The position numbers and the translations under genes are program-made. The notes beneath the pieces were generated by a model, which searched no databases, had not been told where the DNA came from, and saw only the letters and a list, made by a program, of their open reading frames with translations. Source: an uncultured Pseudomonadota bacterium (GTDB taxonomy: Bacteria; Pseudomonadota; Gammaproteobacteria; Burkholderiales; Burkholderiaceae). From it: DNA of 9,042 bases. How positions within the stretch are numbered: the stretch's first letter is position 1; every line of letters begins with the position of its first letter. Of this stretch, positions 2,569 through 6,887 are shown one piece after another. The DNA is taken from positions 1 to 9,042 of the forward strand of contig CAMLIZ010000178.1 in assembly GCA_946480245.1 (NCBI GenBank), given 5' to 3'.

Positions 2569-5028
2569 TCAGGCAGCCTGGCGAAAGGCCATCACGGCCT
2601 GGTTGCGCAGGGTGCGCAGCAGCGACAGCTCCTTCTCGCCGAGCGCGATGCCGCCGGCCTGCGCCTTGTCGGCATAGATCAGCGCGAACGGCGCGTTCTT
2701 CATGGTCAGCGGCAGCAGCAGGAAGGCCGGCGCATTCACCTTTTCGCGATACCACGCCGGCAGGCGCGCGGCGATGTTCGCGGCGGCCGTGTCGGAGATC
2801 AAGGTGTCGGCGCCCTTCAGGCACACCGCTGTGAAGAGATCAGCACCGCTGCCCGGCTTGAGCTTCAGCGGCACCCGGAAGTGCGGACTCATCGCCTCCA
2901 CCGCATCGCCCAGGCCGAAGCGGCCGGTCAAGGTCTCGGTCTTCGGGTCACGCAGGCAGAACACGATGCGGCGGAAGTCGAGCGCGCGGAACATCGTCTC
3001 CAGGATCATGCGCAGCACTTCGTTGAGCTTGAAGTTGTCCGCCACCATGTGATTGGTGATGTCCTGGATGCCGGCCGCCAGCAGCTCGGCCACCTGCTCG
3101 GGCCGGGCCGCGGGGCGCTGCAGTGCGAGGGTCTTGGCTTCGTCCGGCGACGCGTAGAGGTTGGCGGTCTTGTCGTCGAGCGGGGCCGGCCGCGTGGCAT
3201 GCAAGGCCAAGGTGTCGAGCGTGTCGCGTTCGGGCGCGTCCTCCTTCACCATGGAGAGCAGGCGTTGTGCCGGCGAGTTGGGCGCCACGTGGATGCCCAT
3301 TGCCTTGGACAGCTGCGTGAGCTTCTCGCGCGACTGCTCGGTGGCGTTGACGATGTCCTTCTCGCTCATGCCCAACGACTTGGCGTAGCGCGCGGCAAGC
3401 GCGGCCACCCGCTCGCCCAGCTTCTCCGGCGGCGTCTGCAGGATCGCATCGGCGATCGCGTTGGCCGCCTGGCCGAGCCAGCGCACGCGCTCGGGCCCGC
3501 GTTCCACCAGCTTGGCCGGCGCTTCGCCGACCGGCTTGCGCATGGCCTTTTGCAGCCCGTCCGGCAGGCCCCAGGACCTGGCCACGCCGATGCCCAGGTC
3601 CTCGTAGCTGATGCCCAGCACCCGTGCCGCCAGCTTGTCCTCTGAGGCGTCGCTGCCGTCGTCGCGCTTGAACTGCTGGCGGATCTGCTGCGCCTCCTCC
3701 GGAAAGTAGTACTCCGTGAGCAGGCGCCCCAGGTTCTGGAACATCGAGCCGATGAAAGCTTCCTCGCTGTCGCGCGCCAGCGGGCACAGCTCGCCGGCCA
3801 GCGAGCCGGCCATCAGTGAGCGCAGGAACTCCTCCTTCAGCCGGTTGGCGTGGCCCTTGTCCTGCATGTGCTCCAGCAGCACCAGCGACAGCGCCATGTT
3901 GCGGATGCCGGCAAACCCGACCAGGGCCACCGCTCGCGAGATCGTGCTCACCGCACCGCCCGCACTGCTGAAGTGCGCGGAGTTCACCACGCGCAGCAGC
4001 TTGTTGGTGAGCGCCACGTCCTTCAGGATCTCGTTGGACAGGCTGTCGAGCGTCTCGTTGTCGGAGTTGGCGACGCGCTGGATGCGCGTGACCGAATCCG
4101 ACAGCGCCGGGAAGTCGCTCTTGTGCTTCATGCGCCGCAGCAGGAACTCCAGCGCGCCGGCGGCAGGCGCCGCGGCAGTGTCAGGCGGTGCTGGCGTTTG
4201 CGGATCGAGCCAGCGCGTCAGCGCCTGCTGCATCTGCTCGGCGCTCGCGTAACGCTGCCCGGCATCGCGCGCCACGGCGCGCAACACCACAGCGCGCAAG
4301 GTGTCGTCGATGCCGGCGCCGCCGCCCGGCAACACCACGTCCTCTTCCTGCACGCGCTTGATCGTGCGGTACGGGTCGCTGTCGCGCAGCAACGGCTTGC
4401 CGGTGAGCATCTCGCCCAGCACCATGCCGGCAGCGAACACATCCATGCCCGGCTGCGGTGCGGCACCGCGGGCCGCCTCGGGCGACATGTAGCCAGGCGT
4501 GCCCACGATCGCGCCATCGCCGGTGTCGGTGATGCGCGCGGCGATGCCGAAGTCCATCACGCGCGCACGATGGTTGGCATCCACCAGGATGTTCGAGGGC
4601 TTGAGGTCGCGGTGCACGATGCCCATGCCGTGGGCGGTGCGCAAGGCATCGAGCACGCCGAGCATCAGCGTCACCGCGTCGCGTGCGGCCAGCGGCCCCT
4701 TGCTGCGCAACAGCTCGCTCAGGGTGGGCCCGTTGACGTACTCGAACACCAGGTACGGGCGGCCCGCCTGCTCGTCGGCCTCGAACAACGGCACGATGTG
4801 CGGATGCGTGATGCGGCTGACGGCGCGCGCCTCGTGCAGCCATTGGTTCAGCGCCAGCGTGGCACCCTCCGCGCGAAGCAGCTTCACCGCCACTTCGCGC
4901 TCCAGGCGCGGGTCGAAGGCCAGCCAGACCGCCGCCTGGGCGCCCTTGCCCAGCACCTTGCGCAGTTCGAAACGACCAAGACGGCCGGGGGCCGTCTTGG
5001 AGGGGGCCGTGCTGGCGGCGCTGCTCAT
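2569..5028 (-). CDS. Ser/Thr protein kinase with HDOD domain and C-terminal GAF-like domain
   Basis: This 819-residue, probably cytosolic protein has no membrane segment or signal peptide. Residues about 20-275 form a Hanks-type kinase with the key motifs intact: Gly-rich loop G27-K-G29-A-Q-A-A-V, ATP-anchoring Lys in VAVK49, likely alpha-C Glu66, catalytic loop HRD141-L-K143-P-S-N146, metal-binding D159-F-G161 and the activation-segment end GTPGYMSPE (176-184). It should be catalytically active. Residues about 292-505 form an HDOD domain (FPALSDSVTRIQ, then DVALTNKLLRVVNSA, then SRAVALVGFAGIRNMALS and FQNLGRLL). This is an HD-like output fold that lacks the phosphohydrolase metal ligands. 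Residues about 645-819 resemble a GAF sensor domain (AAGIQDITNHMV...LDFRRIVFCLRD). Its ATG overlaps the stop of the upstream pseudokinase-HDOD gene (ATGA, 5028-5025), with a GGGGAT ribosome-binding-like site at 5039-5034, so the two are probably translated together. The substrate and signal are unknown. A role coupling a ligand or redox input to phosphorylation is inference from the domains. Confidence 0.93.
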   Translation of the reverse strand: MSSAASTAPSKTAPGRLGRFELRKVLGKGAQAAVWLAFDPRLEREVAVKLLRAEGATLALNQWLHEARAVSRITHPHIVPLFEADEQAGRPYLVFEYVNGPTLSELLRSKGPLAARDAVTLMLGVLDALRTAHGMGIVHRDLKPSNILVDANHRARVMDFGIAARITDTGDGAIVGTPGYMSPEAARGAAPQPGMDVFAAGMVLGEMLTGKPLLRDSDPYRTIKRVQEEDVVLPGGGAGIDDTLRAVVLRAVARDAGQRYASAEQMQQALTRWLDPQTPAPPDTAAAPAAGALEFLLRRMKHKSDFPALSDSVTRIQRVANSDNETLDSLSNEILKDVALTNKLLRVVNSAHFSSAGGAVSTISRAVALVGFAGIRNMALSLVLLEHMQDKGHANRLKEEFLRSLMAGSLAGELCPLARDSEEAFIGSMFQNLGRLLTEYYFPEEAQQIRQQFKRDDGSDASEDKLAARVLGISYEDLGIGVARSWGLPDGLQKAMRKPVGEAPAKLVERGPERVRWLGQAANAIADAILQTPPEKLGERVAALAARYAKSLGMSEKDIVNATEQSREKLTQLSKAMGIHVAPNSPAQRLLSMVKEDAPERDTLDTLALHATRPAPLDDKTANLYASPDEAKTLALQRPAARPEQVAELLAAGIQDITNHMVADNFKLNEVLRMILETMFRALDFRRIVFCLRDPKTETLTGRFGLGDAVEAMSPHFRVPLKLKPGSGADLFTAVCLKGADTLISDTAAANIAARLPAWYREKVNAPAFLLLPLTMKNAPFALIYADKAQAGGIALGEKELSLLRTLRNQAVMAFRQAA

Positions 5029-6887: not shown

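Follow-up and report, generated by a model that had tools for sequence, protein, structure and literature searches.

A conserved pseudokinase-HDOD protein of a Burkholderiales family, with and without its active-type kinase paralogue

A pair of adjacent genes encoding a pseudokinase-HDOD protein (PsK) and an active-type kinase-HDOD-GAF protein (K) was analysed in a stretch of 9,042 nucleotides from an uncultured member of the Burkholderiaceae (contig CAMLIZ010000178.1; referred to as the window). Comparison across genomes revealed PsK and K to be paralogues, the residue losses of PsK to be fixed and its locus to be a common slot, from which K is absent in part of the genomes while PsK continues under purifying selection. 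The reading we favour, tentatively, is that PsK is a fixed pseudokinase paralogue acting as a non-catalytic adaptor, which would dock on kinase N-lobes (those of K where present) and signal via its HDOD domain; activation of K as the only role is the weaker rival.

Locus and domain architecture

The window contains the following features.

5025..6887, minus strand: PsK gene, upstream in the pair, encoding a 620-aa pseudokinase-HDOD protein (ORF list, Pfam, residue alignment)
6033..6839, minus strand: PsK pseudokinase domain, about residues 17-285, with T52, G70, H142-x-D144, Q146, M149 and G162
5364..5975, minus strand: PsK HDOD domain, residues 305-508 (Pfam PF08668, 65 bits)
2569..5028, minus strand: K gene, downstream in the pair, encoding an 819-aa active-type kinase-HDOD-GAF protein
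4204..4980, minus strand: K kinase domain, about residues 17-275, with K49, E66, H139-R-D141, K143, N146 and D159-F-G (Pfam PF00069, 150 bits)
3538..4110, minus strand: K HDOD domain, residues 307-497 (Pfam PF08668, 117 bits)
2587..3027, minus strand: K GAF-type domain, residues 668-814 (sub-threshold Pfam GAF match, GAF calls in homologues, predicted alpha/beta fold)
5025..5028, minus strand: ATGA in which the stop codon of PsK overlaps the start codon of K, of the translational-coupling type (junction sequence)
2447..2544, minus strand: gene for SRP 4.5S RNA (ffs), immediately downstream of K, marking the syntenic slot (Rfam RF00169 match of 68.4 bits, gathering score 40)
6971..9025, minus strand: addA (helicase-nuclease subunit), cut by the window end; 5' neighbour in the slot
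856-2436, facing the PsK and K genes: phospholipase D/cardiolipin synthase-like gene, between purM and ffs
purM, cut, facing the PsK and K genes

The kinase-then-HDOD order of both proteins and the ATGA overlap, as described in a first-pass annotation of the sequence, were confirmed by coordinates, junction and Pfam. The junction reads 'cgATGAgc', with the TGA of PsK at 5027-5025 and the ATG of K at 5028-5026. The Pkinase match of PsK amounts to 53 bits, and all Pkinase and HDOD scores of the two proteins exceed the curated cut-offs (for PF08668, 117 bits in K and 65 bits in PsK versus 22.9). The proposed GAF-like region of K is less certain: the Pfam match is weak (16-20 bits) and below the cut-off, but a precomputed GAF call is present in several close K homologues, and the structure model of K shows a confident alpha/beta domain at about residues 643-818.

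In the window, ffs and K share a strand, whereas wherever else an ffs core was found at a PsK locus, it faces the pair; the orientation in the window genome is a local inversion. The phospholipase D-like gene between purM and ffs is also present at two other PsK loci examined. A match to ASdes RNA at 6339-6279 was discarded, its score being below the gathering score.

Catalytic residues and paralogy

Residues were compared in an alignment of 73 PsK rows from 72 loci (one frameshifted gene gave two rows, the kinase stretch of one being meaningless) and 72 rows of the K clade that include a kinase domain, and in a second sample of 120 close homologues each of PsK and K from a protein collection. 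The assignments of the first-pass annotation were recovered at the aligned columns, both for PsK (T52, G70, D144, Q146, M149, G162) and for K (K49, E66, D141, K143, N146, D159).

Neither the beta3 lysine nor the DFG aspartate is kept in any of the 73 PsK rows; the catalytic-loop lysine is replaced by Q in 61/73, the asparagine is retained in 6/73 and the HRD aspartate in 67/73. Among the PsK rows listed, the maximum is three of the six catalytic residues, reached in two rows. The close homologues of PsK have V, A, T or L in place of the beta3 lysine (119 aligned; one gap), G for the DFG aspartate in 120/120 and Q for the catalytic-loop lysine in 114/120; the catalytic-loop asparagine is missing as well, and HxD is retained in 120/120. 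The degraded elements of PsK are VAIK, DFG and, in the catalytic loop, K and N, the HRD aspartate (D144) being retained; the protein falls under the sequence definition of a pseudokinase, that is, loss of at least one of VAIK lysine, HRD aspartate and DFG aspartate. Homologues keeping VAIK and DFG, which would have spoken against the proposed pseudokinase, were found neither among the 73 rows nor among the 120 homologues, HRD being kept in most. A recent pseudogene or a sequencing error was ruled out, as the losses recur in the 120 close homologues and purifying selection acts on sister genes. Many of these proteins are labelled serine/threonine protein kinase in databases, which is misleading.

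The retained HxD (120/120) and the frequent Q at the lysine position (114/120) raise the question of whether PsK uses its kinase fold differently, be it for AMP transfer as carried out on this fold by SelO or for glutamylation as by SidJ and SdjA, and passages of a review do describe repurposed bacterial pseudokinases. Lacking the beta3 lysine, the DFG aspartate and the catalytic-loop asparagine, however, PsK would, judging by sequence, present no known ATP/Mg ligand set, and we consider such an activity highly improbable.

All six kinase residues are present in 67 of the 72 K-clade rows, K of the window included, the five others being G004, G005, G134, G190 and G008, in the last of which the N-lobe no longer aligns. 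In the close homologues of K, HRD, K143, N146 and DFG are found in 120/120, and K49 and E66 in 119/119 aligned. Judged by these six residues, K of the window is predicted to be an active Hanks-type kinase. In the sister MAGs G004 and G005 (loci L004 and L005), K is decaying beside PsK, with K143Q and E66D in one, and K49A, E66D, N146S and GFG for DFG in the other.

PsK and K align with 32% identity over 561 residues (E 4e-80), a significance from which it follows that the common architecture reflects common descent; chance similarity was thereby ruled out. In an HDOD tree of 159 rows, built with a quick method with SH-aLRT support only and containing one frameshifted piece with a spurious long branch, the PsK (73) and K (86) rows were found on opposite sides of one branch with support 100. 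PsK and K are old paralogues.

A search of 250 genomes of the order gave a PsK-grade match in the centre genome (G001) only, with weaker matches of 26-34% identity in 71 others; among 274 genomes of the class, 14 matched, namely G001 and 13 at 24-34% identity. From these searches, 32 regions outside the family were chosen, yielding 35 rows with a kinase domain, of which 34 have the beta3 lysine (K49) and 33 the DFG aspartate (D159). When these rows were included, PsK branched at an unresolved fork between family K and the outside rows, and the second K copy of G017 grouped with the latter. Since the outside-family kinase rows are mostly of the active type, PsK is most simply explained as a decayed duplicate, in which catalysis and GAF were lost once, probably near the base of the family.

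Three tandem pairs outside the family (G357, G489, G713) have both copies of the active type. At G595 (L150 6935-8733), the second kinase copy of a tandem, cut by the contig end, carries NFG in place of DFG. A lone kinase-HDOD-GAF-like protein outside the family (L147 3308-5707), in which R, HGA and GLG stand in place of the beta3 lysine, HRD and DFG, is likely a second, independent pseudokinase.

Pairing, separation and selection

The family sample comprised 200 genomes of the family to which the Aquincola tertiaricarbonis genome belongs. Loci taken were 63 with PsK and 37 further ones from the PsK and K searches, four of which also fell in the PsK clade; this gave at least 67 PsK genomes, weak family matches having been left out. 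The four to six best candidates per genome were scored, and absence of K or PsK holds at that sensitivity.

Of the 67 PsK genomes, 47 have K adjacent to PsK and 20 lack it at the locus; over all PsK loci, K is adjacent in 52/72. Common markers of the paired loci, where present, are addA or rho before the pair and ffs, purM and dnaX after it. Eighteen of the orphan PsK genes have about 5 kb or more of downstream sequence and no K; the other two (G079, G106) were counted because ffs and purM directly follow PsK. The slot was recognisable at 13/20 orphans, with the ffs core 35-838 bases after the PsK stop and no K between; three of the remaining seven have an upstream marker only (addA or rho) and four have none. 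No K remnants were found at the 20 orphan loci by tblastn (E 1e-3), and no K was found elsewhere in these genomes at E 1e-60, except for kinase-less HDOD-GAF proteins and one broken match. The former occur in the sister genomes G164 and G038, where the HDOD domain is retained in both partners; the latter is a distant HDOD match obtained in G079 with K as query.

Separation is also seen from the side of K: 30 K-clade rows, 17 of them with an intact kinase, come from genomes without a found PsK. The paired or orphan state changes at least eight times on the PsK tree; on the K tree, presence of PsK changes at least four times and intactness of the kinase at least ten times. No slot marker gene was found near 32 of the 33 K-clade loci without adjacent PsK, so K is kept elsewhere, too. 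Kinase-less HDOD-GAF proteins (L133, L134, L117, L120, L121, L125, L126, L130-L132) are nested in the K clade, which suggests that the kinase domain was lost repeatedly.

Where both genes are present, an in-frame ATG, GTG or TTG overlaps the PsK stop in 20/53 pair rows (ATG in 12), and the distance from the PsK stop to K residue 17 is 3-154 nt in 51/53; the other two rows are pieces of frameshifted PsK genes (G061, G109).

These data bear on two rival explanations. STRAD is known for its action on LKB1, and, like STRAD, PsK is a pseudokinase that forms a pair with an active kinase to which it is related; PsK might accordingly exist as the obligate heterodimer partner of K, serving as its allosteric on/off switch. 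The adjacency in 47/67 family genomes and 52/72 loci and the overlapping starts in 20/53 pair rows would agree with this, as would the intact kinase residues of K in 50/54 rows with PsK in the genome versus 17/30 without (Fisher p = 1.6e-4 with kinship ignored; 4 of 88 rows, two fragments and two distant HDOD proteins, were dropped). Once relatedness is allowed for, however, the latter association reduces to two to four independent pairs on the tree, and it is not claimed here. In contrast to the dependence on a partner kinase expected of a STRAD-like protein, PsK is found without K at the locus in 20/67 genomes, with purifying selection continuing. Furthermore, 17 rows show an intact K where no PsK was found, the K-type relatives sampled from order and class come without a PsK-grade match, and K is decaying beside PsK in two paired MAGs (G004, G005). 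We regard an obligate switch as unlikely.

Conversely, PsK and K might be functionally separate, with their adjacency a legacy of tandem duplication. The eight or more changes between paired and orphan state, the 32/33 PsK-less K loci lying away from the slot markers and the tandem active-type copies outside the family (G489, G713, G357) fit this explanation, but the close spacing in 51/53 pair rows does not, and we consider it not very likely.

In the first-pass annotation, PsK had been proposed as a coupled heterodimer partner setting the activity of K, whose GAF-like region would sense a signal; frequent separation of the two genes was named as speaking against this. The part that stands is a sequence pseudokinase adjoining an active-type paralogue in 47/67 genomes. 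Frequent separation is what was found, in the 20/67 PsK genomes without K, the at least eight state changes and the 30 K-clade rows without PsK; with the two genes apart this often, dedicated activation of K falls short as a full explanation. As the dead copy is conserved and yet without K in over a quarter of its genomes, it probably acts as an independent adaptor and not only as a switch.

Constraint on the two proteins was compared by tree length in the same 50 paired genomes. Values of 16.4 for the PsK pseudokinase domain and 13.5 for the K kinase domain indicate comparable constraint; those of the HDOD domains are 17.3 (PsK) and 16.6 (K). Terminal branches were compared between 18 orphans and 45 pairs, excluding the three rows that two frameshifted PsK genes had given. 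In both domains, the orphans evolve faster (medians 0.25 and 0.33 versus 0.17 and 0.17 in pairs), with no bias toward the pseudokinase domain, whose median share was 0.46 versus 0.50 in pairs (Mann-Whitney p = 0.60, at low power). Pseudokinase-domain dN/dS, calculated by NG86 on GC-rich genes, was 0.08-0.42 in five orphan sister pairs and 0.04-0.22 in seven paired ones. Three of the five orphan values exceed every paired value, these three pairs also being more distant, and their HDOD dN/dS was 0.30-0.51 versus at most 0.22 in paired ones. Thus, orphan PsK is faster as a whole protein, possibly with some general relaxation, but purifying selection persists in both domains, and the pseudokinase part is not the first to be abandoned. 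With selection maintained and the pseudokinase no more relaxed than the HDOD domain, PsK has a role of some kind without K. A mirror-tree correlation of r = 0.80 reflects common ancestry and was not used as support.

Fold, known systems and proposed role

The AlphaFold2 model of PsK shows a complete kinase fold (mean pLDDT 84), with 10-residue means in the pseudokinase domain mostly above 90 and lower at about residues 161-190. By Z-score, the top fold match was the Rv3910/MviN pseudokinase (21.7; rmsd 2.9, 235 aligned), followed by PknA and PknB entries from 21.6 (PknA, rmsd 4.2) down to about 20, where matches within 1 are tied with Rv3910. Ordered by Foldseek E-value, PknB and PknA come first and Rv3910 ninth, its target TM-score being 0.74 versus 0.65 for the top-ranked active kinases.

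The back-to-back dimer of PknB involves its residues R10, L33 and D76; PDB titles include the PknB mutants D76A and L33D. The equivalents in K (R19, L42, E83) are invariant in 119/119 aligned homologues. In PsK homologues, R is found in 113/114 and E or D in 119/119, L in only 5/120; PsK of the window has all three, L45 included. R and L align with PknB directly, and the position of D76, which lies within three residues inserted in the alignment with K and was placed via StkP, is less sure. Paired PsK did not clearly retain this surface better than orphan PsK did (Fisher p = 0.06, 0.25). As a sign of dimerisation, the conserved residues are only suggestive; we infer that the pattern would fit PsK homodimers less well than homodimers of K or K:PsK heterodimers.

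PknB and StkP are the nearest solved sequences of the kinase-like domains of PsK and K, and K has the catalytic motifs of such Hanks kinases. They carry PASTA domains, whereas in K the kinase is followed by HDOD and GAF-type domains. MviN, the ActPs3 pseudokinase acting with PknB and FhaA, resembles PsK as a PknB-type bacterial pseudokinase whose fold ranks at the top by Z, tied with PknA. According to a 2025 review of bacterial pseudokinases (PMC12599244), MviN spans the membrane and is required for the synthesis of peptidoglycan, its pseudokinase is a back-to-back dimer phosphorylated by PknB, its L750 and D793 are the counterparts of dimer residues in other kinases, and all motifs are degraded in its family. 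PsK differs in that it keeps HxD, is followed by HDOD and mostly adjoins its own active paralogue. The families named in the review that were compared by feature are ActPs3 and GLW, leaving aside ActPs1, ActPs2, CP1, DYD and DLHK. PsK belongs to neither: degradation of all catalytic motifs including HRD (ActPs3) contrasts with HxD in 120/120 close homologues, and GLW in place of HRD contrasts with HRD in PsK of the window and HxD in the 120.

HDOD is described in the source passages as a non-catalytic fold of signalling proteins such as SadB, HdpA and GsmR, which resemble PsK and K in HDOD signalling; a fusion to a kinase or pseudokinase is not mentioned in these passages. The term HDOD is absent from the text of the review (PMC12599244), which calls bacterial pseudokinases largely unexplored experimentally, and a passage of PMC4395418 that deals with partners of receiver domains names HDOD modules and Ser-Thr kinase modules each on their own. 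No literature on HDOD with a pseudokinase was found in a search outside of which most subscription papers lay, and none on such a pair was found, by title, for HDOD with a protein kinase. The PsK/K pair is undescribed in the literature searched.

For the favoured adaptor, the following course is proposed. A kinase-HDOD-GAF gene was probably duplicated near the base of one Burkholderiales family, the PsK copy losing GAF and catalysis before the family radiated. The pseudokinase domain, still folded like a kinase and with part of the N-lobe surface through which Hanks kinases of bacteria dimerise back-to-back, might dock on K or, where K is gone, on some other partner. K may bind or phosphorylate PsK, whose HDOD domain could pass this state on, and co-translation would favour assembly where both are present.

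Less firmly, PsK could stand for an unnamed pseudokinase family composed of two dead enzyme folds, pseudokinase and HDOD, that turned from half of a duplicated pair into an autonomous adaptor outliving the kinase several times, with the kinase part of the partner lost instead in G164 and G038. PsK is conserved across the family, mostly beside its own active paralogue, and there are genomes with both proteins, with either or with a kinase-less partner. Such genomes offer a natural comparison for studying how a dead kinase may pass from being half of a pair to independence.
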